Assembly (NCBI GenBank): GCA_934373455.1
Contig: CAKRON010000005.1
Location: 1-59,749 of the forward strand
Length of the DNA stretch: 59,749 nt
From: an uncultured Marvinbryantia sp.
Lineage (GTDB): Bacteria; Bacillota; Clostridia; Lachnospirales; Lachnospiraceae
Direction of reading: 5' to 3'
Under the pieces are notes generated by a model. The model had not been told where the DNA came from. It searched no databases and was given only the letters and a program-made list of their open reading frames with translations. The first letter of the stretch is position 1. Each line of letters begins with the position of its first letter. Below, piece after piece: positions 17,147 through 40,239 of this stretch. The position numbers and the translations under genes are program-made.

Positions 17147-18517
17147 ATGAAACAAATTGATTTTGAACATGGTACGGTAACAGGAAATATTCTGGGCACT
17201 GCTATGCCGCTTCTGGTTGCACAAATCCTGAATCTGTTATACAACATCGTAGACCGTATCTATATTGCCCGGATTCCTCAGACAGGGACTGCTGCACTTG
17301 GCGCCGTCGGACTATGCTTTCCTCTGATTGTCATTATCACAGCCTTTGCCAATTTGTTCAGCAGTGGCGGCGCGCCTCTTTTTTCCATTTACAGAGGAAA
17401 AAAGAAAGAGCATGATGCCGTATGTATTATGAATACTTCTTTCTCCATGCTCTGTATCTGTGCTATTTTATTGATGGTCATTGGTCTTTTACTGGCCAAA
17501 CCTATTCTGATCTTATTCGGTGCCTCAGATGATGCATTACTTTACGCCCTTCCATATTTGAGACTCTATCTGATCGGTACCCTGCCATCCATGATTGCAG
17601 TGGGCATGAATCCCTTTATCAATGCACAAGGCTATTCCGTCATTGGTATGTTTTCTGTTGCGATTGGTGCCTTAGCTAATCTGCTTTTGGATCCTCTGTT
17701 TATCTTTGTTTTTGGTTTTGGTGTGCAGGGTGCTGCCATTGCAACGGTGATTTCTCAGTGCTTTTCTGCTATATTTGTTCTGTTTTTTCTTACCAGAAAA
17801 ACTGAGCTGAACGTGCGTTTTCTGCGTTTTGATGAATTCTCAAAGAGTCTGACTTTCGCTAAAAATATTGTCAGTCTTGGAACTGCCGGCTTTATCATGC
17901 AGCTGACCAACAGTTTGGTGACAATCTGCTGCAACAACGTACTTTCTGTCACCGGCGGTGATATCTATATCTCTGTTATGACAATTGTATCCAGTATCCG
18001 CCAGTTGGTTGAGACGCCAATCTCTGCTATCAACGAGGGGACTTCTCCTATTTTAAGCTACAACTACGGTGCCAGACGTCCTGCAAGAATTCGAAAATCT
18101 ATCCAGGTTATGAGTATCATGATTCTTGGCTACACAGCCCTTATGTGGGGTCTGATCATTCTGACTCCCGGCATGCTGATTCGTGTATTTAGTTCGGATA
18201 CTGCTCTGATTCAAGACTCTATTCCTGCCCTGCATCAGTACTTTGCCGCATTTATTTTTATGGATCTGCAATATATCGGACAGACTGTTTTTAAATCTTT
18301 AAATAAAAAGAAGCAGGCGATTTTCTTCTCCCTGCTTCGTAAAGTATTTATTGTCGTTCCACTGACTTATCTGATGCCTTATACACTGCATATGGGCACG
18401 AAAGGTGTCTTTCTGGCAGAACCTATATCGAATGTCATTGGCGGAAGTCTTTGCTTCCTTACCATGCTGTATATCGTACTGCCAGAACTGAAACGTATGG
18501 ATGCTGCTTCTAATTAA
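17147..18517 (+). CDS. MATE family efflux transporter
   Basis: 456 residues from the ATG that lies 9 bases after AAAGGGG. About 12 hydrophobic segments in two similar halves. The N-terminal half has IVDRIYIARIPQTGTAALGAVGLCFP and the second begins near residue 235 with LGTAGFIMQLTNSLVTICCNN, as in MATE exporters of the DinF/MepA type. They use Na+ or H+ gradients to export cationic compounds. Its last four bases overlap the stop of the convergent LUD gene. Substrate unknown. Confidence 0.9.
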   Translation: MKQIDFEHGTVTGNILGTAMPLLVAQILNLLYNIVDRIYIARIPQTGTAALGAVGLCFPLIVIITAFANLFSSGGAPLFSIYRGKKKEHDAVCIMNTSFSMLCICAILLMVIGLLLAKPILILFGASDDALLYALPYLRLYLIGTLPSMIAVGMNPFINAQGYSVIGMFSVAIGALANLLLDPLFIFVFGFGVQGAAIATVISQCFSAIFVLFFLTRKTELNVRFLRFDEFSKSLTFAKNIVSLGTAGFIMQLTNSLVTICCNNVLSVTGGDIYISVMTIVSSIRQLVETPISAINEGTSPILSYNYGARRPARIRKSIQVMSIMILGYTALMWGLIILTPGMLIRVFSSDTALIQDSIPALHQYFAAFIFMDLQYIGQTVFKSLNKKKQAIFFSLLRKVFIVVPLTYLMPYTLHMGTKGVFLAEPISNVIGGSLCFLTMLYIVLPELKRMDAASN

Positions 18518-19149
18518 AGTCCAAGTACATCATTTACCAAAATCACATGTATTCTGTCCTGATGTCTGGAATATCTGGTAATCAGGAACTGACAGCAGAT
18601 TGTATCCGGAGATTTACAGTCAAAACATTTTCCGGTTTCTTTACAAGGTGTTTTGATATCAAATCTCTGGGCATTTGCAGGAGCTGCTACATTTCTGGCA
18701 CGCTTCATTGCATTGTCAAGATCTGAACAGACTTTATTCATTCCAACGATAAAAACTACTTTTTTCGGTCCCTGGGCAATACAGGATACGCGATTGGCAT
18801 TGCCATCAATATTGACAAGAATTCCGGCATCAGTGATCGCGTTTGCACTGGTTAAAAAGACATCTGCATCATATGCAGCCAGAAGTCCGGCGCGCGGATC
18901 AAGTTTGTCTCGGTCAATATAATGATAATTTCCCTCTTCCAATGCTGAAATCAGGCCTATTTCGTGCGCACTCATGCAGCCTCCCATAGCTATGGTACTG
19001 CCTTCCGGGATCAGTTCCAGCGCCAGTTTTAATGCTTCTTCTTTGTCTGCCGCATAGTATCCGGACATATTACGTGATTTCAGTCCTTTTATCACCGTAT
19101 TCGCCAGTAATTCATTTCTTTTCTTCATATTTACAGAAAACATTGTCAT
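18514..19149 (-). CDS. LUD-domain protein (lactate utilisation/YkgG-like)
   Basis: About 211 residues. The start is uncertain among GTG and ATG codons at 19161, 19155, 19149 and 19143; 19149 lies 6 bases after GTGAGG. The LUD fold is shown by IPEGSTIAMGGCMSAHEIGL near residue 50, FLTSANAITDAGILVNIDGNANR near 100 and the VVFIVGMNKV segment. Five Cys cluster near the C-terminus (PCKETGKCFDCKSPDTICC) and may bind metal. Small stand-alone LUD proteins are common in Clostridia and their reaction is unknown. It starts 15 bases after the last PAS-GGDEF gene with no terminator between, so it may be the tail of the exopolysaccharide operon. Confidence 0.8.
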   Translation of the reverse strand: MTMFSVNMKKRNELLANTVIKGLKSRNMSGYYAADKEEALKLALELIPEGSTIAMGGCMSAHEIGLISALEEGNYHYIDRDKLDPRAGLLAAYDADVFLTSANAITDAGILVNIDGNANRVSCIAQGPKKVVFIVGMNKVCSDLDNAMKRARNVAAPANAQRFDIKTPCKETGKCFDCKSPDTICCQFLITRYSRHQDRIHVILVNDVLGL

Positions 19150-19164
19150 TCTCATCCTCACTTT

Positions 19165-20016
19165 CTATAGACTTTTCTGTGCTTTTTTATTCTCATACAT
19201 GTTTTCATCAGCTTGTTTCATGATCATTGATTCTGGTATCTCCATAGTCTCTCTTACCATACCTCCAACTGCAAGCCCTATTTCAGTCGTTATATCTGAG
19301 AGTTCTATCTGAGATTCCTTTATTTTTTTCATGATTTCTTCATGCTTATCCTGATCACAGCCAGGTGTAATGATAAGGAACTCGTCTCCACCCCAGCGTA
19401 CAATAATAGAATTCTCTTTCGTTGCGCTCTTCAAAACCTGAAATGTTTCTTTGATATAATAGTCACCCATATCATGACCATACCGATCGTTGATTTCCTT
19501 TAGGTTATTACAGTCACAAAATATGTAGCTGCATGGCAGACTCTGTATATTGTCAAACACATATTCTACCGAATAGTTTCTGTTATATGCCCCCGTCATC
19601 GGATCATATAAACTCATCTTTTCAAACTGACGTCGAAGCTTTTCAACTTCTGTCACGTCATTACAGATACCACAGATTCCAATAATCTCTCCATCATCAT
19701 TGTGAATCGCTTCTTTTAAAATCTCAAGATAGGTTTCATTTCCATGCTCATCTAAAAAGCAGTCTATACTATGCGTAGATTCCCCTGTTTGTAATATCCG
19801 CATGTCTTCCTCATAATATCTTTTTCCCAGTTCTTTATCAAACTGTATATCCACATCCCATTTTCCAATGATCGTTCCTTCCGGACCTGCATTTACCAGA
19901 TCGCATACCTGCGTTGTAAATACATACTTTCCTTCTGTATCTTTAAAAAACAGTGTTGCCGGAAGGGCTCTGACAATATCTTTCATATGAGATAAAAATT
20001 CCTGTTTAATTTCCAT
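19165..20016 (-). CDS. PAS-GGDEF protein, predicted diguanylate cyclase (operon copy 2)
   Basis: 283 residues with no membrane segment. A PAS domain occupies about 1-120 (FFKDTEGKYVF, GKWDVDIQFDKELGKRYYEEDM) and a GGDEF domain about 125-280 (YDPMTGAYNRNY, then IIVRWGGDEFLIITPG). The intact GGDEF motif predicts synthesis of c-di-GMP from two GTP. There is no RxxD inhibitory site five residues upstream, so product inhibition through an I-site is not expected. It is a paralogue of the gene just upstream, which it overlaps by 11 bases, and probably arose by tandem duplication. It sits at the 3' end of the exopolysaccharide operon. Confidence 0.88.
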   Translation of the reverse strand: MEIKQEFLSHMKDIVRALPATLFFKDTEGKYVFTTQVCDLVNAGPEGTIIGKWDVDIQFDKELGKRYYEEDMRILQTGESTHSIDCFLDEHGNETYLEILKEAIHNDDGEIIGICGICNDVTEVEKLRRQFEKMSLYDPMTGAYNRNYSVEYVFDNIQSLPCSYIFCDCNNLKEINDRYGHDMGDYYIKETFQVLKSATKENSIIVRWGGDEFLIITPGCDQDKHEEIMKKIKESQIELSDITTEIGLAVGGMVRETMEIPESMIMKQADENMYENKKAQKSL

Positions 20017-20872
20017 CCCGTTCCGCCTTTCTCTGCATTTTATCCTGATACATTGCCTGATCTGCCAACTGTATTACTGCTTCTTCCGATTGTTCTATAT
20101 CAGTGCGGATACTATATCCCATTGCCACTTGAATATATGGAGCTACTATTCTTTTTATACCCAGTTCATATTCTATTGCTTTTAAAATTTGCTGACAATC
20201 CTCTTCATTACAATTTGGAATGACAAGTAAGAATTCATCTCCACCCCAGCGGATACAACTTCCTTTCTTATCTGTCACGAACTTCAGTACATCTGACACC
20301 ATCAAAATATACTGATCTCCAATTTCATGTCCATACCTGTCATTTACCATTTTCAAATCATTGCAGTCACACATGATATACGCACATGGCAGACAGGAAG
20401 ACTTATTATAATCATGTTTTAAAAAATAATTACGATTATAACAGCCTGTGCTGTTATCCAGAACACTCAGTTTTTCGAAGCGTTCCTTTAAATCCATCAG
20501 TTCTGTCACATCACTGACAACACCACAGACTCCTATAATTTCGCCATCACTGTAAATCGGATTTTTGGAAATTTCTCTCACTTCCCGTTTCCCATTAACA
20601 TAAAATTCTGAATAACAATGTATCGGCTTTCCACTTTTCAGGATTTCTTTATCCTGTTCATAATACAGTTTTCCCAATTCTGGATCATATTGAATATCCA
20701 TATCTGTTTTTCCGATAATTGAATTCTCTTCTCCACCATTGATTGCTTCTTCGATTTCTGATGTATAAATATATCGGCATTCCTTGTCCTTTGCAAAAAG
20801 CACCACCGGAATTCTGTTATACTTATAAGCATACTCCAGCAATTCTTCTACTGAATATTGTTTCTTGTCCAT
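20006..20872 (-). CDS. PAS-GGDEF protein, predicted diguanylate cyclase (operon copy 1)
   Basis: 288 residues from the ATG preceded by TTAAGGA; the frame is open for 26 more codons to an ATG at 20950 that lacks a site, and the paralogue downstream aligns from the shorter start. PAS domain about 1-120 (LFAKDKECRYIYT, GKTDMDIQYDPELGKLYYEQD), GGDEF domain about 130-285 (NSTGCYNRNYF, IRWGGDEFLLVIP). The active motif is intact and no RxxD I-site is present. The PAS domain implies that a ligand or redox cue controls c-di-GMP output. Placement in the operon suggests a local supply for the I-site receptor encoded upstream. Confidence 0.87.
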   Translation of the reverse strand: MDKKQYSVEELLEYAYKYNRIPVVLFAKDKECRYIYTSEIEEAINGGEENSIIGKTDMDIQYDPELGKLYYEQDKEILKSGKPIHCYSEFYVNGKREVREISKNPIYSDGEIIGVCGVVSDVTELMDLKERFEKLSVLDNSTGCYNRNYFLKHDYNKSSCLPCAYIMCDCNDLKMVNDRYGHEIGDQYILMVSDVLKFVTDKKGSCIRWGGDEFLLVIPNCNEEDCQQILKAIEYELGIKRIVAPYIQVAMGYSIRTDIEQSEEAVIQLADQAMYQDKMQRKAERDGN

Positions 20873-20962
20873 ATGATATTCCTTAAACCATTCCCCAATT
20901 TTTCTTAGTCTCTGACCGACTTTCCAGTTCCATATGGACTTTTGCTTCATATATTTGAATGT

Positions 20963-21949
20963 TTACAGTTTTGATTCCTCTTCTTTACTTAATTTTCCAT
21001 ATGTCCTGTCACTAATAATATATCTCGGTCTTGCCTTTGTTTCAAGATAGATTTTCCCAATATATTCTCCAATCACGCCAAGACACATAAGTTGTATTCC
21101 AGCCATAAAACAGACAATACATATTGTTGAAGCCCAGCCATCTATTGCTCCACCTGTAATATACACTATGAATGCCCAAATAACTCCAATAAAGCTGATT
21201 ATCGAAAACACTGCCCCAAGTCCAGTTATCAGTCGAATCGGTTTAATAGACAAACTGGTAATTCCATCAAAAGCAAGCGCCAACATTTTTTTCAATGGAT
21301 AGTGGCTCTCTCCTGCAAGACGTTCATGTCGCTCATAATAGACACTTGTACTTTTAAATCCGACTAACGGAATCATTCCTCTCAGGAAAATATTCACTTC
21401 CTTAAAGTTTGCCAATTCCTGTAGTACTCTGCTGCTTATCAAACGATAATCTGCATGATTAAAGACCACCTCAGCCCCCATACATCTCATAAATTTATAA
21501 AATCCTTCTGCGGTTACACGCTTAAAAAATGTATCTGTATCTCTTTTACTTCTGACACCATATACTACTTCACATCCGTCAAGATATGCATCCACCATTT
21601 CATCCATTGCATTTATGTCGTCCTGCCCATCACAATCTATTGAAATAGTAATGTCACAATGATCTTTTGCTTCCATTAATCCTGCAATTACAGCATTTTG
21701 ATGTCCTCGATTACGGCTCTGCGAAATTCCAATACTATATTTTTCCTCTTCTGCCAAATGACAAATAATATTCCAAGTATTGTCTTTTGATCCATCGTTT
21801 ACATACATAACTTTGCTTTTTTCAGAAATTTTTCCTTTTTCTTCCAATTCCTTTAGTTTTTCTTTAAACATCTTACCAGTAACAGGAAGTACTTTTTCCT
21901 CATTGTAACAAGGAACTATAATGTATAAAACAGGTTTTTTTCTATCCAC
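20963..21949 (-). CDS. GtrB/DPM1-like glycosyltransferase family 2, lipid-linked sugar synthase
   Basis: 328 residues with a GTG start (GAGGG six bases upstream) that overlaps the preceding gene by 8 bases. A GT2 domain (IIVPCYNEEKVL, YVNDGSKDNTW, SIDCDGQDD) is followed by two C-terminal membrane helices at about 228-255 and 265-290, then LGVIGEYIGKIYLETKARP. This is the layout of GtrB and dolichol-phosphate-mannose synthase-type enzymes that put one sugar on undecaprenyl phosphate at the inner face of the membrane. The likely acceptors of that lipid-linked sugar are the GT-C-like transferases of the same operon. The sugar cannot be told from the sequence. Confidence 0.88.
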   Translation of the reverse strand: MDRKKPVLYIIVPCYNEEKVLPVTGKMFKEKLKELEEKGKISEKSKVMYVNDGSKDNTWNIICHLAEEEKYSIGISQSRNRGHQNAVIAGLMEAKDHCDITISIDCDGQDDINAMDEMVDAYLDGCEVVYGVRSKRDTDTFFKRVTAEGFYKFMRCMGAEVVFNHADYRLISSRVLQELANFKEVNIFLRGMIPLVGFKSTSVYYERHERLAGESHYPLKKMLALAFDGITSLSIKPIRLITGLGAVFSIISFIGVIWAFIVYITGGAIDGWASTICIVCFMAGIQLMCLGVIGEYIGKIYLETKARPRYIISDRTYGKLSKEEESKL

Positions 21950-24900
21950 GTTTTTCCCTCACATTCTTCCACGTCAGTTGTTCCCTATATTTCCACATAA
22001 ATTTTAAGATTAAAACACCAGTTATTACAGTAAGGATATCATGGCACAACATAAATCCGAACATCTGCTTCTGGTTATCTGCAAATCCATTTCCTACTAC
22101 AGACAGCGGATACTGTATCACACCGATCATCATCACTGCCACATACATTCCTGCTAACAATTTCTTTTGAATGTCCGTCTGTTTCTGTAACATAATATAG
22201 ATACTAGCAATCAGTAAACTTCCATAGACCAGCACATAGCCCCAAAATGTTGAAAATGTGAACACTGGTCTCCAATATAACCATAGTCCCAGTCTGTCTA
22301 CTGTATCGTGTTCTCCAGCATAATCCTGTCCCAGATAAGCTCTAAATCCATTATACAGTTCTTGAGATACATTAGCTGCATGATTCATCATTTTTATCAG
22401 CTGTTTTGGTCTTTTTAGATAATATTTTACCAATGTTCCTGTTGTAACGTGATCATAAAATGCCGCATCTGCCTCTTTTGAATTAGGACTGATTACATAA
22501 TCATCATCCGGCTGGTAAGCATCTTTACCTATATCTGCCGCCATTCTGACATCAATCCCCAGTTCTTTCATATCATCAATCGGATCATCTGAAACCATAA
22601 GTGCACCATAAAACACTGCCTGCCAGAGCGTCTGACGCTCTGAAATATGACTGTTGTCCTGATATACTTTTACCCCTTCATATGAGATAATTCCCATACC
22701 CAAAATTATCACTATAGTATAGGTTATAAGCCTGCCCAGTCTCAACGGTCTGTGATACAAGGCAAAAATGCATATCATTACAAGTAGAATTGGAAGTGTC
22801 ACCAGCATCTGTGCCTTCGCGCACACCAGAAAATGACAGGCAAATAACATTATAAACACACTTAGTACTCCTTTTCCCTTTGGCACAATAGACAGATGAA
22901 TTCCGCAAGCCAGTACCATAAAAGTTCCAAGAAATATCATACTTTCCCCAAAAAGCGAATTAAACCATACCAGATAACTCTCACATAGAAAAATAATGCA
23001 CAATCCTATTCCCAGAAGCAATGTATATCTGCCAAGATATACATATAGATCTCGCACAATTGAGATCAGGCAAATCAGTAGAAGAATCGTCATGATGATA
23101 CTAAGCCAGTACGTACTAAATGGCTGATCTAGCACAGCTGATATTCCACGTACCACAGTTGCCGGATAAATCAAACTATATTTGGGACTTAAAAAGGTTA
23201 ATGCTGCCGGTTGAAATGTTTCTCGATAAGCATAATTTTCTATTACTCTTCTTCCCAACTGTGCATCTACATCATAAAAAATATCTCCCTGCCAGATAAT
23301 CCCAAGCTGATCCATCATTCTTCCGAAATCGCCATTATTGACGCACCCTGCTCTCGGTGTTGCAAATAAAACCATACCTGCCATAACTGCTGCTATAGCT
23401 GACACCAGCAATACTGTTTTTCTCCGATTAGATGCAATCACCATAATACCCTTTTTCATTCTCTGCAATATTATTACACATATACCACTTAATCCTGTCA
23501 CATCAGTACGGCTTTCTGATGTTTCTACATCTTCCTCGTACAGATTTTCCTTTTCCTCTGTAATAATTTTCGCCTGAAGTTTTTGAAACCATACAGTACC
23601 ATTTACACAGCATCTTCCCACTAATAAAGCAAGACCACCCACGGTAACAATCATGGCAAAAACCGCCGATACCCTGGATAATTCCAGAGTGTCTCTTCCC
23701 ATAAAGAACAGATGCGCCGGTATATATCCCAACGTTCCCAGTTCCCATAAGAAAAACAAAATAACATTATTCAGTTTATGTATCTTCTTTTTGATCTGTA
23801 AAATCACAGCCAAAACAACAAATATTGCACCACTCACCAAAAGTATCCATGCACCACTGTAATTCGTTGGAAAACATACCGCCAGAAACATGTCCACTAT
23901 TGACCAGTTTCTGAATGTTTTATTAGTCTGCTCTGTATTTTGTCCCGGTTTCAATAATAATTGTGATTCCAAACTTGCAAAATTCTCCTTCTGCCTCACA
24001 GCAGTCTGGATTATTCTCTTTGGATTTTTCAAATACCACTTCAGAATCGATTCTCTGTTCAATTTGGAAAATAATTTTTCTGCCTCTTTGGGATCTCGTG
24101 GATTATGTTGATATTCATCTTCTTCTAAATAATAGGATTTTCCGATGTCTTCTGCATAGTCTTCATCCAGACCGAACTCTGCAAGATCTTTTTTGGGATC
24201 GTCTGATGCTTCCAAAAATCCCTGAAATGCACAAAAATATACTGAAGCATCTGACTGTATATCCGGATTATTACTCATCAAATGCATGCCTGATACTATT
24301 CCAGTAATGAGTAAAAAGCCTGTCATACATGCCGTCATTTTTTTATGCCGGAAAAACATCCATTCTTTTTTCACAATCAGTATTCCTGCCAATACTGCAA
24401 ATGGCAGAAAAACAATTGATAGTGTCGATGCATTCAACAGGAACATCAAAGACAGTATCACTGGAACTACCGTTACAGCACCAGCTTCTTTCCTGTACGA
24501 ATATGCTCTGACAAGAGACGCCATTACAAGCAACAGACCAATGACCACTGTTCCGACGTCATAAAGTGATGCAAAATAAGCATTGAGATTTCCATCTGCT
24601 AACAGTAATGTCAATGCTGCTCCTGCGATACATCCCAAAGGTGTCCCACAGATTCCTGCTACTCCTCTTGTTATAACTGCTACACAAACAGCTGCCAGCA
24701 AAGCATATAGAAAATACAAATATTTTAAGGAAAAGAGGATTCCAAAAGGGTTCGTTACTGCACGGATGCACGCAATGGGATACACCACACTATGTATTCC
24801 ACTTGGCGCTAACAGTTTTGCATAGGCGAAATGACCATAATCATATTCTTCTATTACATGATCATAGGTGAGCGGGCGACCGGATTGAAGCTCTTCCTGC

Positions 24901-25082
24901 GTGTATTTCAAACCGGCTTCTTTCATAATTACTTCATATTTTCCTGTATCAATCGTTCCAAGATGTCCCGGCGATAAAAATTCAAACAATAACATCAGAA
25001 AGCAAACTAAACCCAATAATGCGCCACAAGCTTTTCTTTCATTTTTTAAAAAATGATACCATTTTTTTCTAAGCTTATTCAT
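21942..25082 (-). CDS. Tandemly duplicated GT-C-like membrane protein
   Basis: 1046 residues with about 20 hydrophobic segments arranged as two homologous modules. Landmarks repeat with constant spacing: LGTIDTGKYE (Asp45) matches CVNNGDFGRMM (Asp585), 540 residues apart, and ASDDPKKDL (293) matches VSDDPIDDM (831), 538 apart. Each is followed by a segment with xDIGKxxY and a YLKxPKxxI motif. The module boundary is a charged stretch near 500-545. An acidic residue soon after the first helix is typical of GT-C transferases, which use polyprenyl-phosphate sugars outside the membrane. The start overlaps the SGNH gene stop as ATGA. A single-module paralogue is the first gene of the operon. The transferase role is inference. 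Confidence 0.7.
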   Translation of the reverse strand: MNKLRKKWYHFLKNERKACGALLGLVCFLMLLFEFLSPGHLGTIDTGKYEVIMKEAGLKYTQEELQSGRPLTYDHVIEEYDYGHFAYAKLLAPSGIHSVVYPIACIRAVTNPFGILFSLKYLYFLYALLAAVCVAVITRGVAGICGTPLGCIAGAALTLLLADGNLNAYFASLYDVGTVVIGLLLVMASLVRAYSYRKEAGAVTVVPVILSLMFLLNASTLSIVFLPFAVLAGILIVKKEWMFFRHKKMTACMTGFLLITGIVSGMHLMSNNPDIQSDASVYFCAFQGFLEASDDPKKDLAEFGLDEDYAEDIGKSYYLEEDEYQHNPRDPKEAEKLFSKLNRESILKWYLKNPKRIIQTAVRQKENFASLESQLLLKPGQNTEQTNKTFRNWSIVDMFLAVCFPTNYSGAWILLVSGAIFVVLAVILQIKKKIHKLNNVILFFLWELGTLGYIPAHLFFMGRDTLELSRVSAVFAMIVTVGGLALLVGRCCVNGTVWFQKLQAKIITEEKENLYEEDVETSESRTDVTGLSGICVIILQRMKKGIMVIASNRRKTVLLVSAIAAVMAGMVLFATPRAGCVNNGDFGRMMDQLGIIWQGDIFYDVDAQLGRRVIENYAYRETFQPAALTFLSPKYSLIYPATVVRGISAVLDQPFSTYWLSIIMTILLLICLISIVRDLYVYLGRYTLLLGIGLCIIFLCESYLVWFNSLFGESMIFLGTFMVLACGIHLSIVPKGKGVLSVFIMLFACHFLVCAKAQMLVTLPILLVMICIFALYHRPLRLGRLITYTIVIILGMGIISYEGVKVYQDNSHISERQTLWQAVFYGALMVSDDPIDDMKELGIDVRMAADIGKDAYQPDDDYVISPNSKEADAAFYDHVTTGTLVKYYLKRPKQLIKMMNHAANVSQELYNGFRAYLGQDYAGEHDTVDRLGLWLYWRPVFTFSTFWGYVLVYGSLLIASIYIMLQKQTDIQKKLLAGMYVAVMMIGVIQYPLSVVGNGFADNQKQMFGFMLCHDILTVITGVLILKFMWKYREQLTWKNVREKRG

Positions 25083-27631: not shown

Positions 27632-27641
27632 CTCATCCCTC

Positions 27642-29135: not shown

Positions 29136-29154
29136 TTTTTATCCTCACTCTCTC

Positions 29155-30744: not shown

Positions 30745-30766
30745 ATCTTCGCTTCTTTTCCATCCA

Positions 30767-32551: not shown

Positions 32552-32574
32552 ATACTTTTACCTTTCTGTCTAAT

Positions 32575-34773
32575 CTAGTGTTTCTTCTGTCTTAAATAAA
32601 TACGAATGAATATCAGAATCGCTGTCAGCAGTAATAAAAGCATAATTGCTGTAGAAACTACTGTAAAGACTGCTGCCTCCTTGTTTTCTTCCATCATATT
32701 CTTCAGTATCGGCTGCTTTTCTTCTTTTCGTTCCTGCGCAGATTCATAAGTTTTAACTTCGAGATCACTGTCAATCAACACGGTATCTTTCTCAAGATCC
32801 CATGCATTTTCATCGTCACTGATAAATTCTCTCAAGAAACCTGTTGTTCTATCATCTAATGCCGCTGCAACTAAAATGGCTCTTTTTTCTGTATATGGTG
32901 AATACAAAAGCTGCAATGTTGCGATATTTTTTGCATAATTTTCTGATAAAACCAACTGATCATTACTCGAAAATGCATCACCTGTATCATTATACGAAAA
33001 GTATAACTGATCATTTAATTCTCTTATAAAACTATTATCAGTATAATTTCCTATCGTAATGATATGATTATCTTTATCTTCTTCTTTTTCGAAGTTTTCG
33101 GCTTTCTTCACATTTAATTCACCATATGGACTGATATTTTCTCCATACAAAGCAATAAGTTCTCCCAACGTATTCAGTTCTTCACTACTGATTTCATCTG
33201 GAATAACAACTAAAAGATGATTAAATTCAGACGATATTTCAAATGGATATGGTCTTTGTGCCAGATTATAATTACTGCCGGCTCCAACCGGAAGATAAAA
33301 TACAGATTCTTCTGTCACATATGCCCATGGCATTTCATCCATCCTCGGAGTACAAAACAACTCTGGAAGCTCCAAATCAAATGCAATAGATATTTTACCT
33401 GCATAAGTTCCTACCACATCCTGCGGCATGGTAAATGTAAGTTCATCCCCATCAGCATTTTCCAAAGTCAGCTTTTTACTCGCAACTGGTATATCTCCCC
33501 AATAAACAGTTATCATCGAACGTCTGAAATCTAAATTCTTGCTATATCGGAATTTTAGAACCATTTTCCCTGAATCAGCCAGGACATACCCACCGGAAAA
33601 TGGCAAATAAATATCCCCCTTCTGATGAAAAGGTCCTACAAAAGAAAGTCCGGAATCCATTAATGCATCCAATGTATATCTTCCAGCAATCATATCACTA
33701 CTTTGGGATGATTCTATCACCTGCTGTGCACTTCCTGCTTTAACAAAAGCCACACTGTCCTTTTCCTGGGATACACGACTTTCATCCAACAGCATAATGG
33801 CAGCTTCAGACAAACAGTCCTCATTCTCAGAAGTAATCAATAAAATTTCTGATGAATCTTCCTCTATAAATTTTATCATTGCTTCTTCTTTCAGATTTCT
33901 GTCAGATGTTTCTTTTTCCACCAGAGAACGATATGTATCATCCAGATTGTCAAGTAACGAAACCAATATTACTTTTTTACTATCTGTCGGAAGATCGGAT
34001 TCTCTGACAAGAGAAATGTCATCTTTCAGATTGGTTTCATTTCCCAGATCTGCTCTCAAAAGAAGTGCCGCTTTCATCTCTGATTCAGCACATTGATCTG
34101 ATACTGCTATATAAGTATCTTTCCCACTTTCATCTATTGTCGACATAAACGGATATGGATACGCAGATATTTTCTGTTTATGATCTTCCAAGTCATATCC
34201 TGCTCGAATATAAGAATTTTTGCTGATACTGATCCAGTTTGCTCCTGAAAAATCATCAATACATCCTTCTTCATCGTATATTCTGACATAACCCGTAATA
34301 TCAAACGTGTTATATCCCTTTTTTAACATTTCAGTCGGAATTTCAACATAGAGAATCTGATTCTTTCCGTTTTGATAATCCATTTTAAAAGATGTCACCG
34401 GTACGTCATTTACCATAAAAGTCAATGACGCCGGCACATCCTGTATCAGCTGACTCAATTCTGTTTCGATCTGTGCATAAACATATTGCGTTTTCCAATA
34501 ATCAGGTATCTTGAAGTAATATGTATTCGTTTCGAAAATACCGCTTAATACCACATCATCACTATATTCAAAATCTTTTTCGTATTTTGCTGATTTAGCT
34601 GGCTTCTCATATTCCGGTTCTTCTGCATCTTCCGGATTACTGTTCATAATTTCTGACAGTGCCTGTCTTTTCTCATCATTATTCGCAGCACTGACAGGTA
34701 CTGCTATTATAAATACTACGAATACAAAAAAAATGATCATTCTGTATAAATTCTGTATTTTTTTATCTGCCAT
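32575..34773 (-). CDS. BcsB-like surface subunit of an exopolysaccharide synthase (YdaN-like)
   Basis: 732 residues from the ATG preceded by AGAAGGAG, overlapping the synthase gene by 11 bases. A signal peptide (hydrophobic about 10-28, ending VSAANN) is followed by a long beta-rich region and a single C-terminal helix (about 697-722) ending in basic RIYLRQKKH. The region near 95-150 reads like the BcsB carbohydrate-binding fold (ASLTFMVNDVPVTSFKMD, later KGYNTFDITGYVRIYDEEGCIDDFSGANWISI), and a second such region begins near 415 (GKMVLKFRYSKNLDF, YWGDIPVASKKL). BcsB guides the growing glycan at the outer face and anchors the synthase. Gram-positive counterparts sit beside a BcsA-like GT2, as here. 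Confidence 0.85.
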   Translation of the reverse strand: MADKKIQNLYRMIIFFVFVVFIIAVPVSAANNDEKRQALSEIMNSNPEDAEEPEYEKPAKSAKYEKDFEYSDDVVLSGIFETNTYYFKIPDYWKTQYVYAQIETELSQLIQDVPASLTFMVNDVPVTSFKMDYQNGKNQILYVEIPTEMLKKGYNTFDITGYVRIYDEEGCIDDFSGANWISISKNSYIRAGYDLEDHKQKISAYPYPFMSTIDESGKDTYIAVSDQCAESEMKAALLLRADLGNETNLKDDISLVRESDLPTDSKKVILVSLLDNLDDTYRSLVEKETSDRNLKEEAMIKFIEEDSSEILLITSENEDCLSEAAIMLLDESRVSQEKDSVAFVKAGSAQQVIESSQSSDMIAGRYTLDALMDSGLSFVGPFHQKGDIYLPFSGGYVLADSGKMVLKFRYSKNLDFRRSMITVYWGDIPVASKKLTLENADGDELTFTMPQDVVGTYAGKISIAFDLELPELFCTPRMDEMPWAYVTEESVFYLPVGAGSNYNLAQRPYPFEISSEFNHLLVVIPDEISSEELNTLGELIALYGENISPYGELNVKKAENFEKEEDKDNHIITIGNYTDNSFIRELNDQLYFSYNDTGDAFSSNDQLVLSENYAKNIATLQLLYSPYTEKRAILVAAALDDRTTGFLREFISDDENAWDLEKDTVLIDSDLEVKTYESAQERKEEKQPILKNMMEENKEAAVFTVVSTAIMLLLLLTAILIFIRIYLRQKKH

Positions 34774-36088
34774 GTTTTCTCCTTCCTTCTCTGTCAAACA
34801 CGTCATCTATCTCATCTTCTTTTACAGATGCCTGCTCCACATATCGGACGGTCTTGTCCCACTTTACTTCTTTGTGAAACATCTGATCTGTTATGGAAAG
34901 ATACACTGCCTTTAGCACAACGAACACCCAGAGTTTTGCATAAGTAAACAACATCAAAAGCACCAACAGTGCCGATTCCAATGAAAATTCATTTTTTTCA
35001 GTGGCAAGTGTCAACATTACATTAAATACAAACACCAGAATTGCCATTCCCCACAATAATGAAGAAAAGCCTCCTAACGTCACATGTACCCACCCTAATA
35101 CTCCACAGAAAAAAATTACATCTGAAATTACGAGCGACGATAGCATTAATATGTACACAATCAGATAATAAATAACATCCAGTCTCATTGCTCCTGCATT
35201 TTTATCAAATGCATATCGAAAGTTCTTCACAAGTACATACAGATTTCCTTTTGCCCATCTGGTTCTTTGCCGAAACCATACATTCAAAAGATGTGGTTCC
35301 TGTTCCCAGGTTACTGCCAATGGCATTTGTTTTATATAATATCCCATTCGGTATAGTCGAAAACTAATCTCTGTATCTTCTGATAACGCCTTCGTATCCC
35401 ATCCACCAATCTGTTCAATAATACTTCTCCGAATCACATAATTTGTGCCTGGTATTGTGCATAGTTTAAAAAAGAAATATCTTCCGGCCTGATTCATACA
35501 CTGATATGCCAGGGTCTCAATATTTACGAATCTGCTCAAAATAGAGGCATTTCTGTTTCTTGTACGGAATTTTCCAATCACCGCACCAATTTTATCATCT
35601 GTCATCAGATTTTCCACCAGTATAATCAATGCATCCGGTTCCGGTGTATTATCTGCATCATAAACTGCAATAATCTCGCCCTTAGAAACAGAAAATCCAA
35701 TATTCAGTGCATTCGATTTTCCGGTTCCTCCGACCTCTTTTCCTGTATTAATCACAATCAAATGACTGTCTGGCATTTCTTTTTGAATCTCTTCCAGTTT
35801 CTCTGCCGTATCATCACTGGAATTATCATTAATCACAATAACCTCAAGACGATCTCTTGGATAATTAAAGTTTAACAAAGCGCGAACTGTTCTGGTAATG
35901 ACAAGACTCTCATTATGCGCCGGAACCAGAATACTCACCATTGGATATTCTTTTAATGGAACCCTTCCATCTGTTTTTCCAACTTTCATATAATAAATAA
36001 ATCCACCAATGGACAGAATCACATTAATGATCATCAGTGCCCATATAGAAATAATTGCATACAATGACAATGAATCTACAAATGACAT
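34763..36088 (-). CDS. BcsA-like processive glycosyltransferase family 2 (YdaM-like) without PilZ
   Basis: 441 residues: one or two N-terminal helices, a GT2 domain and about three to four C-terminal helices (300-410). All motifs of processive synthases are present: VPAHNE at 55, INDNSSDD at 86-93, VYDADN at 142 (DxD at 144-146), PGTNYVIR at 213, LSEDTE at 235 (the TED-like base) and QRTRWAKGN at 274. It is expected to polymerise and export a beta-linked glycan from a nucleotide sugar. The C-terminus ends soon after the last helix, so no PilZ domain is present and c-di-GMP control must come from a partner. The DUF2334 gene lies 6 bases upstream and the BcsB-like gene overlaps its end. Confidence 0.93.
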   Translation of the reverse strand: MSFVDSLSLYAIISIWALMIINVILSIGGFIYYMKVGKTDGRVPLKEYPMVSILVPAHNESLVITRTVRALLNFNYPRDRLEVIVINDNSSDDTAEKLEEIQKEMPDSHLIVINTGKEVGGTGKSNALNIGFSVSKGEIIAVYDADNTPEPDALIILVENLMTDDKIGAVIGKFRTRNRNASILSRFVNIETLAYQCMNQAGRYFFFKLCTIPGTNYVIRRSIIEQIGGWDTKALSEDTEISFRLYRMGYYIKQMPLAVTWEQEPHLLNVWFRQRTRWAKGNLYVLVKNFRYAFDKNAGAMRLDVIYYLIVYILMLSSLVISDVIFFCGVLGWVHVTLGGFSSLLWGMAILVFVFNVMLTLATEKNEFSLESALLVLLMLFTYAKLWVFVVLKAVYLSITDQMFHKEVKWDKTVRYVEQASVKEDEIDDVFDREGRRKHGR

Positions 36089-36094
36089 AATCTT

Positions 36095-37672
36095 TTACTC
36101 TTCCTTTTTATCTTTGTATAAAAACTGCTGTCTGTTTCTGATTCTTGCATAAACAATAAATGACGTAAAAATGATAATCACGATTACTACAATAAACATC
36201 AGTACATGATTTTGCTTTTGAAGATTTAAAGTAATCCTCTGTATCATTCTCCTCTGATAATCATAATTTGTATCATACGCTTCCGGATTAAATTGTCTTT
36301 CCGTCTGTTCCCCATTCAAATATAGTAAATTGTCTGCATATACTATATTATAATTATTAATCCAGACACTGTGATTTAAATTCCACAGATTCATAAAAGG
36401 AGCTACGCTAATACGGCTGTTATCAAGAATTCTTGTCAACTCGTCCGTATCAGTTTCACCATCTATATATACTGCTGAAGAATAACACTTCAGTTCATTT
36501 TCTCCTGCCTCTCCCGGATTTATAGCTGGCATGATAGTCTGATGTCCCTGTCTTCCAAACAAGCTTGTACCTGTCTGCATTGAAAATCCAGTTTCTTTAC
36601 CGTCATCATAAACAAACACGGTCCGATATCGTTCTAAAACTTTCAGGTATACTTCATCATTTAACCAGCTGTACGGTACTTCAATTCCTATAGGATAAAC
36701 TCCAAGGTTTACATAAGTCATTGTCATCTCTGTCAGTTTTTCATATATTTCTTCTATATCTTCTACCTGTTTATGGATCAGTGGTGCATGCAGTATAACC
36801 GCTCCTCCATTTTGCTGGGCATATGCCAGAACTTGACAGAATTCTTTCATAGAAGGATAATCCCCATTCTGCATAACTGGCATAGCCGATATAATGAACG
36901 GCACTTCTTCTTCTATCATGAGATCGATTTTCTCTTTCAATATGCCTGCATCCATAAATGGATATATTTCATTCAATACGAGATATTGTGCATAATCCGG
37001 AACCGCATCTTTATATGGCCATAACCACAGCGCTAATTCTCTAATCGCGGCAGCTTTCACTATTTTACTTTCAAATTCAGTAATTGGGATAAAACGAATT
37101 CCTGCTATTTGAGAACAAAACGGAACCGTATTCTCCCCCTGTTGAATCTCTCCACTTCTATAAGTCCAGTTATTGCTGATAATCAGATTATTCAGTTTCA
37201 CAATATCGCTATAATCTTTGTTATTTGAAAAATCATATGAAAGCTGCCCTTTGGTCGCTGAATCTATTTTCCATTTTCCTTTATAACCACTTTGCTCCAG
37301 ATATTGAACCAGAAAAGAAGTTCCAAATATCAGCACATTTCCTTGATATTCTTTTAATTGCTGACATAATTCTTTTTCATTATCTATCCCCAGACAAATC
37401 AGATAATCATACTGTTCTATTTTCTGCATACATTCGGTAACTGTTCCATAGTCTGCGGTCTTTCCCATAGCCACGGCCATATTTACAATAGTTTCTACAG
37501 AACTTTCTATCGATTCATCATATCTGTCCGAATAAATGATTAAAAAATTCCCCTCTCCATCCGGCATTTGATTTTCTGAATTACTTTCTGCCGCAACTGT
37601 TACTGCTCCGCATAACAGTATATGTACCATCACTATAAAACATATTTGTTTAAACATCATACTGTAGTTCAT
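36095..37672 (-). CDS. DUF2334 protein (YdaL-like), membrane anchored, probably lacking the catalytic Asp pair
   Basis: 525 residues from the ATG preceded by GAAGGCAG, overlapping the upstream gene by 23 bases. Signal peptide (about 8-28), extracellular domain, and a C-terminal helix (about 488-510). The core near 228-300 is DUF2334, a relative of polysaccharide deacetylases: LVLNEIYPFMDAG, VPFIISAMPVM, AQQNGGAVILHAPLIH. In family members as I know them the first strand reads RIDDVYPF; here the Asp pair is Asn234-Glu235, while His295 and His300 remain. The N-terminal part (40-130) looks like a separate alpha/beta domain. The role in ydaJKLMN-type loci is not established. Loss of the Asp pair suggests a binding or structural role. 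Confidence 0.72.
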   Translation of the reverse strand: MNYSMMFKQICFIVMVHILLCGAVTVAAESNSENQMPDGEGNFLIIYSDRYDESIESSVETIVNMAVAMGKTADYGTVTECMQKIEQYDYLICLGIDNEKELCQQLKEYQGNVLIFGTSFLVQYLEQSGYKGKWKIDSATKGQLSYDFSNNKDYSDIVKLNNLIISNNWTYRSGEIQQGENTVPFCSQIAGIRFIPITEFESKIVKAAAIRELALWLWPYKDAVPDYAQYLVLNEIYPFMDAGILKEKIDLMIEEEVPFIISAMPVMQNGDYPSMKEFCQVLAYAQQNGGAVILHAPLIHKQVEDIEEIYEKLTEMTMTYVNLGVYPIGIEVPYSWLNDEVYLKVLERYRTVFVYDDGKETGFSMQTGTSLFGRQGHQTIMPAINPGEAGENELKCYSSAVYIDGETDTDELTRILDNSRISVAPFMNLWNLNHSVWINNYNIVYADNLLYLNGEQTERQFNPEAYDTNYDYQRRMIQRITLNLQKQNHVLMFIVVIVIIIFTSFIVYARIRNRQQFLYKDKKEE

Positions 37673-38540
37673 TATCTGCCTTCTTTTTAAATTCAATTGA
37701 ATTTGCAATACTATTCTGATCGTACTCCACTGCACCTGTTTTTATTTCTACTTTGATGGAATGATTCAAAATATCCGAAAAAGAATCTCTCTCCAATAGT
37801 TTTTCCTGAATTCTTCTTCTCATAATTTTCGTTCCGTCCTTATCTGTGCTACAGATAATTCCTACCGATCCATTTTCATCAATCGAATATACTCTGTCTT
37901 CCAATCGAATACTGTCTTCAATATGTTCTGCCATTCTTTTTTTCAATTCGTCAAACTGCCTGGCATTCAATATATTTTTTAATTCAGGTGCGTATTTCAA
38001 TTGCACGATCATCAATGAAAGATTCACGCCATTTCTTCTTGCATATGCCATTTGCCTTTCCAAATCCTGATACATACTTTTGAGATTATATAAACCTGTC
38101 ACACTATCTATCACAATCATCTCTCGTACCTGTTTTTCCAATACCTCAGCCATTGCTTCTGCGCGGTAAGTAGATTGCATGAATAAAATCATAGATAACA
38201 CACATAGCATCGGTAGCACCAGCCATGCATAAGAAAACCATGTTATTTTCTGTTCATTAAAAAGTACCTGATATATTTTATATACTGCAAAAAAACATGT
38301 CTGCATTCCGCTAAACACGACTGCTATATAACGGAATTTATATGCTGCCAGGATTATTCCTCCGCACATTATTAAAAACATCGTAATATTTTCCATTTGA
38401 TCACTGTCTGCGGATCTGGCGATTATAGCTGCAGCTGTAAACAAACCTCCCAAAAACAGTATCATTCCAAAATCTTGTATCAATGATTCTCTTTGATTTC
38501 TTCTAATTGTTTCATCAGTCAACTTACTCGTTTTTTTCAT
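37650..38540 (-). CDS. Membrane c-di-GMP receptor with degenerate GGDEF and conserved I-site (YdaK/PssE-like)
   Basis: 296 residues. Four hydrophobic segments at about 25-42, 50-68, 72-90 and 103-121 are followed by a cytoplasmic GGDEF-like domain (about 140-296) beginning MIVIDSVTGLYNLKSM. Where an active cyclase has GGDEF this protein has DENGS (221-225), so it should not make c-di-GMP. The inhibitory-site motif RLED (212-215) is kept at exactly five residues before it, the spacing of a working I-site. This is the signature of c-di-GMP receptors such as YdaK, PssE and PelD. It is placed directly before the DUF2334 and synthase genes, overlapping both neighbours, and is the likely switch of the synthase. 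Confidence 0.85.
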   Translation of the reverse strand: MKKTSKLTDETIRRNQRESLIQDFGMILFLGGLFTAAAIIARSADSDQMENITMFLIMCGGIILAAYKFRYIAVVFSGMQTCFFAVYKIYQVLFNEQKITWFSYAWLVLPMLCVLSMILFMQSTYRAEAMAEVLEKQVREMIVIDSVTGLYNLKSMYQDLERQMAYARRNGVNLSLMIVQLKYAPELKNILNARQFDELKKRMAEHIEDSIRLEDRVYSIDENGSVGIICSTDKDGTKIMRRRIQEKLLERDSFSDILNHSIKVEIKTGAVEYDQNSIANSIEFKKKADNELQYDV

Positions 38541-40089
38541 TTCTGACCTCCAGAATATTCAATTTATGTAATATTTCTGCCATTACATAGTAAAATAAAA
38601 GATCCATAACAGTTCCTGAAATAATATTATATTGTATGAATTGCGAATCTCCGCTTTTCAGAATCACGTAGGTCAGATCTCCCATACATAAAAATACCAA
38701 CATCAGCATAGCTGTAAAGTATACATATTCCCACCTTTGAATATTTTTTTTGTGAAATACTTTCTTGCCAGACATTACAGTAAATACAATTGTTAAAATA
38801 AGTACATATCCGATGGTTTTTGGTGCAGAACGTTCCTTAAAGGTGCTCCAGACTGACCAAAAAATGCTTTTTCCCATTGCCGGCATTCCTGTTGATTCTT
38901 CATAATTACTGCAATAACTTCTTCGCAGATCAAAGGCTGCTTTGACTCCAAGATCCCACATGGATATCAATGCACCAGGATGCCTGAGATAAAACAGCAT
39001 AATATCTTCTTCTTCATATTTGTCCAGAAATCCGTTTTGAATCAGTGAATTGCTGATCTCTGCAATTGGATAATCGTCATAAAGAGATACATCCGTAAGA
39101 ACGGTATAAGAATGATCAATATTCATATGTGCCAATTCATCCTCTGGATCTTCAGACTGTAACAATACACCTCTCGTCATAGCATGAAATTTCGCCGTTT
39201 CATCAAACTCATCACCACAATTATATATTCCGGTTATCGTTCCAGTTAAAAGTACAATACCACAAACTACAGACAACAATTTCATTTCCATTTGCATAAA
39301 AATACGCACCTGTGCAAAAAGGAACATAGCAATCACAATTCCTGCAAGGAAACAACGTTTTTCAGAAAGGATTAATATAATTCCTGCAACAGTAATAACA
39401 AAAATCAGTCCTTTATCGCGCTTATTTTCTTTATGTAACAACATGGATCCCCCAGCAATATACAGAAGACAAATCAATATCAATGCATCTGAATATAGGG
39501 AATTGAAATATGTTATATATGAAATATCTGAAAATATGATAGTCCCCAATACTGCAAGTACTGCGCCTTCTGTAAAAAACGAAACTCGTTCTAAAGCAGC
39601 CTTCAACACTAAATACATACCTGGAGTCCATAAAATAATATAAATCAGTGCAAGAAAACGAATATCAAATAAATTATCCTTTGTAAAATAAGTATCAACT
39701 GCTTTTGCAATATCTACGCATAGCAAATGAGCTGATATCCCTTCTTTTTGCTGAATTGTCCGCTCGTATACTCTTTCAAAATAATTATTGGACGTATTCG
39801 CAGTCTGCGAATCCAGATAACTCAGTCCACTCTCCAACATTTTTTTATTCCCAATTCCGTCATTTGCCACTCCAAGATAGGGTGGAATAAACAAAATTAA
39901 AACACTAATCAACACACCTACCAGTACTGAAAAAAACGCTAATTTTCCAGCAGAATAGTGCAGTCTCATATATTGATTCAGCTGATACCTTTTTTTACTG
40001 AATAATACAATCATACTTCCTACGGATGATAATATAATCTGCCATTTCTTTCTCTTTTGCGTTTCGTTATCTTGTAATTCCTCAGACAT
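38524..40089 (-). CDS. GT-C-like membrane protein, single-module paralogue of the duplicated gene
   Basis: About 521 residues from the ATG preceded by GGAG; an ATG 12 bases upstream lies within that site. It has about 10 hydrophobic segments after a basic N-terminus. Its landmarks match each half of the 1046-residue protein encoded at 21942-25082: PYLGVANDGIGNKKMLESGL near 72 with an Asp after the first helix, FNSLYSDALIL near 196 and QSEDPEDEL near 311, with similar spacing of about 235 residues, followed by a YLRHPGALI motif. It is the first gene of the operon, directly behind the promoter. A transferase role that adds sugar from a lipid carrier is inferred from fold and context. Confidence 0.68.
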   Translation of the reverse strand: MSEELQDNETQKRKKWQIILSSVGSMIVLFSKKRYQLNQYMRLHYSAGKLAFFSVLVGVLISVLILFIPPYLGVANDGIGNKKMLESGLSYLDSQTANTSNNYFERVYERTIQQKEGISAHLLCVDIAKAVDTYFTKDNLFDIRFLALIYIILWTPGMYLVLKAALERVSFFTEGAVLAVLGTIIFSDISYITYFNSLYSDALILICLLYIAGGSMLLHKENKRDKGLIFVITVAGIILILSEKRCFLAGIVIAMFLFAQVRIFMQMEMKLLSVVCGIVLLTGTITGIYNCGDEFDETAKFHAMTRGVLLQSEDPEDELAHMNIDHSYTVLTDVSLYDDYPIAEISNSLIQNGFLDKYEEEDIMLFYLRHPGALISMWDLGVKAAFDLRRSYCSNYEESTGMPAMGKSIFWSVWSTFKERSAPKTIGYVLILTIVFTVMSGKKVFHKKNIQRWEYVYFTAMLMLVFLCMGDLTYVILKSGDSQFIQYNIISGTVMDLLFYYVMAEILHKLNILEVRNEKNE

Positions 40090-40134
40090 TTCCCTCTCCA
40101 TTCATATTTCAGCGTACACTTTTGACTATGCTCA

Positions 40135-40163
40135 ATTATACTCCGAAAATTTTTTCGTTGCAA
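40135..40163 (-). promoter_or_regulatory. Promoter of the exopolysaccharide operon
   Basis: Minus-strand TTGCAA and a perfect TATAAT separated by 17 bases. The predicted transcript starts near 40128 and the leader is only about 35-40 bases, too short for a c-di-GMP riboswitch. Confidence 0.75.
40144..40157. promoter_or_regulatory. Perfect palindrome within the promoter spacer (candidate operator)
   Basis: CGAAAATTTTTTCG: arms CGAAAA and TTTTCG around TT. It lies wholly between the -35 and -10 boxes of the exopolysaccharide operon promoter, where a bound protein would block RNA polymerase. The AT-rich composition makes chance occurrence possible. Confidence 0.4.
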
Positions 40164-40208: not shown

Positions 40209-40239
40209 ACAGGGACGGAGTAAAAAACTCCGTCCCTGT
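40209..40239. terminator. Strong hairpin after the ECF/NiaR/kinase operon
   Basis: A perfect 13-base stem ACAGGGACGGAGT / ACTCCGTCCCTGT with a five-base loop, 12 bases after the kinase stop. On the minus strand it is followed by TGATTTTAT, a weak T-run. It separates the kinase gene from the exopolysaccharide operon promoter. Confidence 0.7.

Follow-up and report, generated by a model that had tools for sequence, protein, structure and literature searches.

The window analysed here, all 59,749 nucleotides of contig CAKRON010000005.1 from an uncultured Marvinbryantia sp. (Lachnospiraceae), contains an operon of thirteen consecutive open reading frames (ORFs) on the minus strand, which runs from 40101 to 19165. 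Its gene content points to an exopolysaccharide synthase of the Listeria Pss type, controlled by cyclic diguanosine monophosphate (c-di-GMP) and enlarged by acylation, glycosylation and cyclase genes. The features are listed from the 5' border of the operon to the ORF behind it, with starts taken from the longest ORFs.

40209..40239, minus strand: terminator-like hairpin with 13 pairs, 8 of them G-C, and a T-rich tail
40135..40163, minus strand: promoter-like site TTGCAA-17-TATAAT with 10/12 matches to the sigma-70-type consensus, judged by this match alone
19165..40101, no strand: low-GC island, GC 0.3633 against 0.4188 on the left and 0.4189 on the right
38524..40101, minus strand: WsfD1, PssA-type, probable GT-C hexose transferase (NF051875, 325 bits, cut-off 80); start at 40101 by longest ORF, with an ATG at 40089
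37650..38540, minus strand: c-di-GMP receptor, PssE/YdaK-type (PF00990), with a membrane N-terminus of three hydrophobic segments, a degenerate GGDEF and an intact I-site RLED
36095..37735, minus strand: DUF2334 protein, PssB/YdaL-type (PF10096), with a hydrophobic segment at each end
34763..36088, minus strand: glycosyltransferase family 2 (GT2) polymerase, PssC-type (PF13641), with DxD, ED and QxxRW at least 95% kept in the family
32575..34806, minus strand: BcsB/PssD-type extracytoplasmic partner (PF03170, 140 bits)
30767..32551, minus strand: PMT_2/STT3-like protein, probable GT-C (PF13231 E 6e-4 and TIGR04154 E 1e-5, both below cut-off)
29155..30744, minus strand: membrane-anchored fusion of thioredoxin (Trx, ResA-like) and glycoside hydrolase family 126 (GH126); the hydrolase half matches PDB 3ren at E 2e-68 and 6r2m at E 4e-27
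27642..29135, minus strand: membrane-bound O-acyltransferase (MBOAT; PF03062, 90.6 bits)
25079..27697, minus strand: SGNH acyltransferase with three LamG-like repeats (PF13385 in repeat 1)
21942..25082, minus strand: double WsfD, two units in one chain (NF051875, 404 bits, two stretches)
20963..21949, minus strand: GtrB/ArnC-type polyprenyl-phosphate sugar transferase (PF00535; PDB 5ekp, sll0501, E 2e-50)
20006..20950, minus strand: PAS_4-GGDEF diguanylate cyclase 1 (PF00990), WGGDEF intact, no I-site
19165..20016, minus strand: PAS_4-GGDEF diguanylate cyclase 2 (PF00990), WGGDEF intact, no I-site
18514..19161, minus strand: LUD ORF, 3 bases behind cyclase 2

All thirteen genes and the LUD ORF lie where a previous sequence-only reading of the window had placed them, and the close packing it described was recovered. 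Neighbouring genes are separated by at most 23 bases or overlap by 4 to 86 bases, as counted from the longest-ORF calls. The start of WsfD1 at 40101 is probably not used; since GGAGAGGG stands directly 5' of the ATG at 40089, the latter start, which that reading had chosen, is likelier. The single promoter it had placed at the head corresponds to one good sigma-70-type site at 40163-40135, located in the 150-base gap between the PfkB gene and the operon, just downstream of the hairpin. This hairpin would close the upstream PfkB unit and mark the 5' border of the operon. The region 39900-40500 has 3 terminator-like sites, including the hairpin on both strands, where 0.3 were expected. The scan for internal sites covered 18000-37900 and left out 37900-39900. 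On both strands it gave 91 promoter-like sites against 79.2 by chance (standard deviation 8.9) and 12 terminator-like sites against 8.0 by chance (standard deviation 2.9), which is little excess in either case. The 3' end (17000-18700) showed no terminator-like site, and no Rfam regulatory RNA scored above the gathering score within the window.

The GC content of the island differs from that of the flanks (Mann-Whitney p 6e-10 on GC bins, a descriptive value since neighbouring bins are not independent). The LUD (0.418) and PfkB (0.441) genes resemble the flanks and both cyclase genes (0.36-0.37) the island. Because the borders of the island coincide with the thirteen genes, the operon looks like one acquired unit with the cyclases at its end. 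A relative of BcsB (E up to 1e-20) was detected in just 4 of 397 genomes from the family of Murimonas, a genus with a related locus described below, Murimonas included; this rarity fits an acquired unit, and the operon was probably acquired horizontally. The LUD ORF, which had been offered as a fourteenth gene, was rejected as a member for its flank-type GC, although it may share the transcript given its 3-base spacing behind cyclase 2. A LUD-domain gene likewise stands downstream of the operon in Candidatus Galacturonibacter (L060, 2058-2699); LUD genes are common, and this could be chance.

The gene order was then compared between relatives. Genome contigs were scanned with a BcsB alignment, which gave 56 loci, 30 of them clostridial-type and 26 others (24 Paenibacillus, Vagococcus and Clostridium minihomine). 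As all loci were found via BcsB, the counts of collinearity are conditional on this gene. Matches below 60 bits were dropped from the locus counts, and gene order was taken from the locus maps, a greedy ORF map having hidden genes under long antisense ORFs in GC-rich metagenome-assembled genomes (MAGs). Three of the 30 clostridial-type loci come from MAGs labelled Chloroflexi or Anaerolineaceae, and downstream extensions were available for 13 of the 30. Not independent of one another are the related MAGs, the sister strains L024 and L025, and L047 and L052, which are two contigs of one strain.

In 26 of the 30 clostridial-type loci the genes for WsfD, the receptor, DUF2334, GT2 and BcsB were consecutive on one strand, so that the homologues, found here through BcsB, were linked in most relatives, as the sequence-only reading had supposed. 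Three of the four misses are loci cut by contig ends (L008, L017, L028). The fourth is a Christensenellaceae MAG (L004, 7571-8653, and L065, reverse complement, 3414-5901), where the WsfD-receptor pair is inverted downstream and an epimerase precedes GT2; this could be explained by rearrangement, by an invertible segment or by an error in the assembly. The PMT-like gene was present in 28 of the 30 loci and Trx-GH126 in 25. MBOAT and SGNH were each found in 14 (SGNH partial in L009 and L017), with MBOAT followed by SGNH in 14 loci and SGNH followed by the double WsfD in 11. In Blautia schinkii, which like Murimonas intestini is a cultured relative, the part of the locus that was covered showed no acylation pair. 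A best match to the double WsfD was observed in 15 loci, with single length in L015. The window's ten-gene order from WsfD1 to the double WsfD was found in three loci (L001 from Murimonas, L003 and L006). The other 26 loci have an order of their own, GH126-WsfD-DUF2334-GT2-BcsB-receptor, consecutive in 23 of them at the 60-bit cut-off, by which L045 counts as a miss though its six genes are ordered. A GtrB gene lies near 8 of the 26 other and 3 of the 30 clostridial-type loci at the same cut-off, and the extensions of L001 and L006 add two. In Clostridium minihomine (L051, 5510-12800) two BcsB and two receptor genes stand in tandem behind one GT2.

Protein searches scored a limited candidate set, and 30 and 32 of the best 120 matches were used in alignments. 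The kept residues of GT2, MBOAT and SGNH have catalytic roles. No Pfam match to a PilZ domain, a feature of the cellulose synthases Bcs and Ccs, was found on GT2. In the receptor alignment RxxD was present in 52 of 52 sequences and GGDEF in 0 of 52 (27 from the window and the clostridial-type loci, 25 mainly from Paenibacillus; L004 with its receptor in the extension, the partial L008 and L045 at 48 bits are omitted). The I-site of YdaK was required for exopolysaccharide production (PMC5422440) and for the binding of c-di-GMP and of DgcK (PMC7064775).

An alignment of DUF2334 relatives showed no Asp or His at 90% conservation or above. An active deacetylase was therefore rejected, and a scaffold is likelier for this protein. 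BcsB residues C182 and C485 are conserved throughout the alignment (54 of 54 sequences), also in Bacilli that have no thioredoxin fusion, and likely form a disulphide. A redox link between the Trx domain and these cysteines was rejected; they are also kept where the hydrolase has no Trx half, and no covariation was seen. In the Paenibacillus set 24 of 25 hydrolases are without WCxxC and nearly all are short.

In the AlphaFold2 model of WsfD1 (mean predicted local distance difference test 88.8, predicted template modelling score 0.89), a helix at 47-67 is followed by an outer loop that contains short helices and extends to about 140, and further membrane helices come after it; this topology looks like GT-C. 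A search of the WsfD profile against PDB sequences gave 0 matches up to E 1. In 27 clostridial-type sequences, the window among them, conservation of Asp81 (counted from 40101; residue 77 in the model) reaches at least 95%. It falls below 95% in the wider set of 53 sequences, where the acidic residue sits one position away in the Paenibacillus sequences displayed.

The link to Listeria was traced through the Lactobacillales, where a search of 395 genomes with the Vagococcus BcsB gave 43 with a match. A protein search with the Vagococcus WsfD for Listeria PssA returned 7 matches, of which two were named and neither was Listeria. We take genome G522 for a Listeria. Its GH126 protein matches 6r2m at 667 bits over 313 residues and is encoded between 5TMR-LYT GGDEF and EAL genes; the published Listeria order is dgcA-dgcB-lmo1913-pdeC (PMC4125290). 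The BcsB operon of G522 (L096) encodes WsfD (565 bits), DUF2334 (weak, 23 bits), GT2, BcsB and a degenerate GGDEF protein, of 491, 501, 416, 683 and 284 residues in this order, and fits pssA-E. Its receptor also has RxxD. The five genes stand in the same order in a second genome (G484, L097) and in a third, more distant one (G643, L098).

The window holds all five pssA-E-type genes and a PssZ-type GH126. Its GT2 is 54% identical to PssC of G522 over 417 residues. The other identities are 27.5% for BcsB to PssD (643 residues, E 7e-79), 27% for WsfD1 to PssA (483 residues, E 1e-54), 23% for the receptor to PssE (279 residues, E 1e-26), 26% for DUF2334 to PssB (187 residues, E 1e-15) and 25% for the hydrolase to PssZ (232 residues, E 3e-11). 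NF051875 (WsfD) was not found in a control set of 14 genomes including B. subtilis. Because WsfD is present in the Listeria-type operon and missing from this set, it seems to separate the Pss from the Yda type, and the window is nearer to Pss. The sequence-only reading had compared the locus with both systems; the core families are present as it said, apart from the hydrolase family, and of the two Listeria Pss is the nearest.

With the Listeria monocytogenes Pss system the window shares the five core families, the I-site receptor, the GH126 hydrolase and two tandem cyclases, which in Listeria are tied genetically to the hydrolase (dgcA-dgcB-pssZ-pdeC; PMC4125290). The window appears to merge into one operon what Listeria splits in two, puts the receptor second, has Trx fused to GH126 and soluble PAS cyclases instead of membrane ones, and holds no phosphodiesterase. 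It adds MBOAT, SGNH-LamG3, the double WsfD, the PMT-like protein and GtrB.

YdaL, YdaM and YdaN belong to the DUF2334, GT2 and BcsB families. B. subtilis ydaJKLMN combines a hydrolase, an I-site receptor and three synthesis and secretion genes (PMC13274460, PMC5422440), and the window has all five kinds, as judged by families and not by comparison with Yda sequences. The differences are WsfD, absent from the control set with B. subtilis, and the acylation, GtrB and cyclase genes, none of which is included in the five genes described there. The clostridial cellulose synthase ccsZABHI is likewise a Gram-positive synthase with a proposed MBOAT/DHHW O-acetylation pair (PMC7710045). It has a PilZ-bearing CcsA and GH5, whereas the window has BcsB, GH126 and no PilZ match. 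NfrBA/NGR of Proteobacteria is also controlled by c-di-GMP and proposed to make an N-acetylmannosamine (ManNAc) polymer, and its clusters may carry an epimerase, a cyclase or an acetylation set (PMC8669469, PMC8669472). NfrB, however, contains the c-di-GMP domain MshEN and NfrA resides in the outer membrane; the covered text describes no I-site receptor or BcsB. Multi-component transmembrane glycosylation (GtrB/GtrA/GT-C) similarly pairs a GtrB-type enzyme with GT-C-like membrane enzymes (PMC8035078), but in the window the acceptor would be the exopolysaccharide made by the synthase, and no flippase was recognised in the operon.

The domain assignments of the sequence-only reading hold generally, with the exception of its GH8-like hydrolase. 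We rejected this label, as the match to GH126 (3ren, E 2e-68) is far better than that to GH8 cellulases (1cem, E 7e-11). We take 3ren to be CPF_2247 and 6r2m to be PssZ, both GH126. CPF_2247 and PssZ are placed in GH126 in PMC7479077, where PssZ is noted to have been labelled GH8 earlier and thioredoxin-like extensions of GH126 are already described. Of 26 sequences, the window's and 25 clostridial-type ones, 23 have CxxC and all 26 the general-acid motif. The Trx half shows no match to the WCxxC pattern in the MAGs labelled Chloroflexi or Anaerolineaceae (L015, L026, L029), which keep the acid motif of the hydrolase.

MBOAT residues H290 and H330 are kept in at least 95% of 15 sequences, and SGNH residues S81, D307 and H310 in at least 95% of 13, the SGNH assignment resting on these motifs and a weak DUF1574 match. 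Identity between the LamG-like repeats is 34-38%, and their alignments score 210-311, compared with means of 30-32 after shuffling. The three GT-C-like proteins that had been proposed are present and make up four units, as the protein of 21942-25082 combines two WsfD units. When partnered by GtrB, GT-C enzymes generally yield alpha-linked branches. The PMT-like protein ends in a charged tail (residues ~564-583) with the motif FDM..A(L/I)..G(H/Y)(V/I) in the window and many of L001-L027. Phe564 is invariant in 19 of 19 aligned sequences and the strict pattern matched 7 of 29; the tail could be a docking site.

Cyclases 1 and 2 are 43% identical, and in both the RxxD five residues before GGDEF is absent. 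Their genes overlap by 11 bases and start 12 bases behind GtrB. By their intact GGDEF signatures both are predicted active diguanylate cyclases. Genomes could be searched for 23 of the 30 clostridial-type loci (all except L008, L009, L014, L017, L025, L028 and L030). None of the 23 has a match (E up to 1e-20) to either cyclase near the operon, while 4 have one to cyclase 1 and 7 one to cyclase 2 anywhere. These matches sit on other contigs or, in G003, 1.7 Mb from BcsB; the position of the G019 match implies more than 25 kb from BcsB even if on the same contig. Weak GGDEF matches (42-61 bits) occur near the locus in L004, L018, L024, L025 and nine Paenibacillus loci. Among the relatives examined the two cyclases thus appear special to the window and would not be essential to the system, which narrows the previous claim of a self-contained unit to an operon that does include its own cyclases. 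In Murimonas intestini (L057, 3109-7434) a response regulator, a histidine kinase and an ABC transporter stand behind GtrB in place of the window's cyclases.

The backbone sugar was approached through an epimerase. The UDP-N-acetylglucosamine (UDP-GlcNAc) 2-epimerase makes UDP-ManNAc, and in the Murimonas locus a gene of this Pfam family lies between the double WsfD and GtrB. By similarity, 13 of the 30 clostridial-type loci contain such an epimerase gene. The family (E up to 1e-30) is present in 22 of the 23 genomes with 31 copies in total, and in 13 of the 23 a copy lies within ~12 kb of BcsB, and 8 of these 13 genomes have no other copy. Under uniform placement, 0.25 genomes would be expected to carry an epimerase within 15 kb, and the maximum in 20000 simulations was 4. 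The gene is on the operon strand in 13 of 13 and takes five kinds of position: it follows BcsB in 5 loci, the double WsfD in 4 and Trx-GH126 in 2, and it precedes WsfD1 in L006 and GT2 in L004. Repeated capture at five positions suggests that the machinery uses UDP-ManNAc. The Listeria Pss exopolysaccharide is beta-1,4-ManNAc with alpha-1,6-galactose (Gal) on every other residue (PMC11439720; PMC5422440 also for ManNAc and Gal). Together, the identity of GT2 to PssC and the epimerase linkage predict a beta-1,4-ManNAc backbone branched by the GT-C enzymes. The linkage argument has already been made for NfrBA, whose clusters may hold a cyclase or acetylation set (PMC8669469); this precedent lowers the conceptual novelty, yet supports the ManNAc reading.

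We consider it probable that the window holds an enlarged Pss-type exopolysaccharide operon, probably acquired horizontally, which works in the following way. The sugars, linkages, acyl groups and regulatory steps are predicted from gene content, homology, order, linkage and kept motifs, which were observed directly. The two soluble PAS-GGDEF cyclases would answer some PAS ligand by making c-di-GMP and would escape product inhibition, the I-site being absent. The membrane receptor with its dead GGDEF and live I-site would bind c-di-GMP and switch on GT2, which would polymerise the beta-1,4-ManNAc chain for export along BcsB and the DUF2334 scaffold. GtrB would make a lipid-phosphate-hexose, to be turned over by a flippase coded elsewhere, and the WsfD units and the PMT-like protein would hang branches on the chain outside. 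Likewise, we propose that Listeria PssA adds the alpha-1,6-Gal. MBOAT would carry an acyl group through the membrane and hand it to the SGNH enzyme, the LamG repeats of which may hold the polymer during O-acylation, and Trx-GH126 would trim or release chains. The sequence-only reading, in which c-di-GMP gates a synthase locus that brings along its own cyclases, acylation genes and GT-C-like genes for branching, is thus upheld at the level of predicted functions. It shifts from a Yda/pss-like locus of unfamiliar form to a clostridial Pss type with exchanged accessory modules.

Several observations weigh against this interpretation. Except for GT2, the core identities to Pss proteins are 23-28%, and the GH126 half is far nearer to 3ren than to PssZ. 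The gene order behind BcsB varies; Trx-GH126 follows the PMT-like gene in 16 loci, precedes WsfD1 in 12 and does both in three. The GT-C fold of WsfD is putative, as suggested by the model topology and by the name of NF051875, a hexose transferase family. Domain searches recognised no flippase among the 13 genes; it may lie elsewhere in the genome. No epimerase was found in the window, so that UDP-ManNAc would come from elsewhere in the genome, and 10 of the 23 relatives have no epimerase match at the locus. These last two points would also fit the same c-di-GMP-gated machine making another beta-linked backbone (glucose, GlcNAc or mixed), with the epimerase serving a ManNAc wall polymer and being a neighbour by chance or co-regulation. 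In line with this, the PgaC/IcaA model gives GT2 its highest score (180 bits, under the cut-off of 422), and the same holds for the Listeria-type PssC. Given the 54% identity of GT2 to the PssC-type synthase, the excess of epimerases at the locus with the sole genome copy in 8 cases, and the placement of the epimerase in five loci, where BcsB lies on one side and the PMT-like or double-WsfD gene on the other, we find such a backbone quite unlikely.

The accessory genes MBOAT, SGNH-LamG, GtrB and double WsfD might instead act on another polymer of the envelope, for instance teichoic acid or a secondary wall polymer, and be joined to the synthase by transcription only. Teichoic acids and wall polymers are commonly decorated by enzymes of the GtrB and GT-C types (PMC8035078), the MBOAT is nearest to the DltB model, below cut-off (149 against 375 bits), and part of the relatives are without the accessory genes. 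The MBOAT-SGNH and SGNH-double WsfD pairs, however, recur beside the same synthase (14 and 11 of 30 loci), WsfD itself is a core gene of the operon, and the accessory genes lie inside the low-GC island; we judge a separate target polymer unlikely. More weight is due to the view that the two cyclases are recent passengers, which feed the general c-di-GMP pool and are no local switch for the synthase. The missing matches near the operon in the 23 relative genomes also count against the proposed local switch. Against passengers stand the GC of the cyclase genes, island-like and distinct from that of LUD, their 11-base overlap and their distance of 12 bases from GtrB. A direct handover from cyclase to receptor has also been reported for DgcK and YdaK (PMC7064775), and we regard the passenger view as doubtful while allowing it a real chance.

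Beyond the enlarged Pss-type operon itself, we tentatively put forward a wider proposal, which is possible but which we would not yet call probable. The locus would be a mobile operon of gut-type anaerobes that forms a full unit for sensing, signalling, synthesis and decoration, in which its own cyclases switch a Pss-type synthase making O-acylated poly-ManNAc with at least two kinds of branches. Across Clostridia the Pss core would then be a platform that exchanges epimerase, acylation, GT-C and regulatory modules, so that the polymer chemistry could be predicted from the cassette. As far as we know, there are few descriptions of matrix polymers under c-di-GMP control from gut Clostridia. Open-access literature joining Lachnospiraceae, c-di-GMP, exopolysaccharide and GGDEF was not found, nor, among the matches listed, was an earlier description of this gene combination, most subscription papers lying outside that coverage. 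PssA named as a glycosyltransferase was not found among the open-access matches listed or in the covered portions of PMC4125290 and PMC10172500, Koseoglu 2015 being outside the coverage. If the proposed mechanism is true, it gives a chemical prediction of an acylated, branched poly-ManNAc, Listeria PssA gains a likely role as a branching enzyme, and the locus offers a natural switch within one operon, which could be transferred into a laboratory host for tests of local c-di-GMP signalling.

Apart from the operon, the window contains a separate second glycan region at 53274-58969, with genes for an ATP-grasp ligase, a GT2, a protein of 436 residues without a Pfam match and a Wzx-like flippase.

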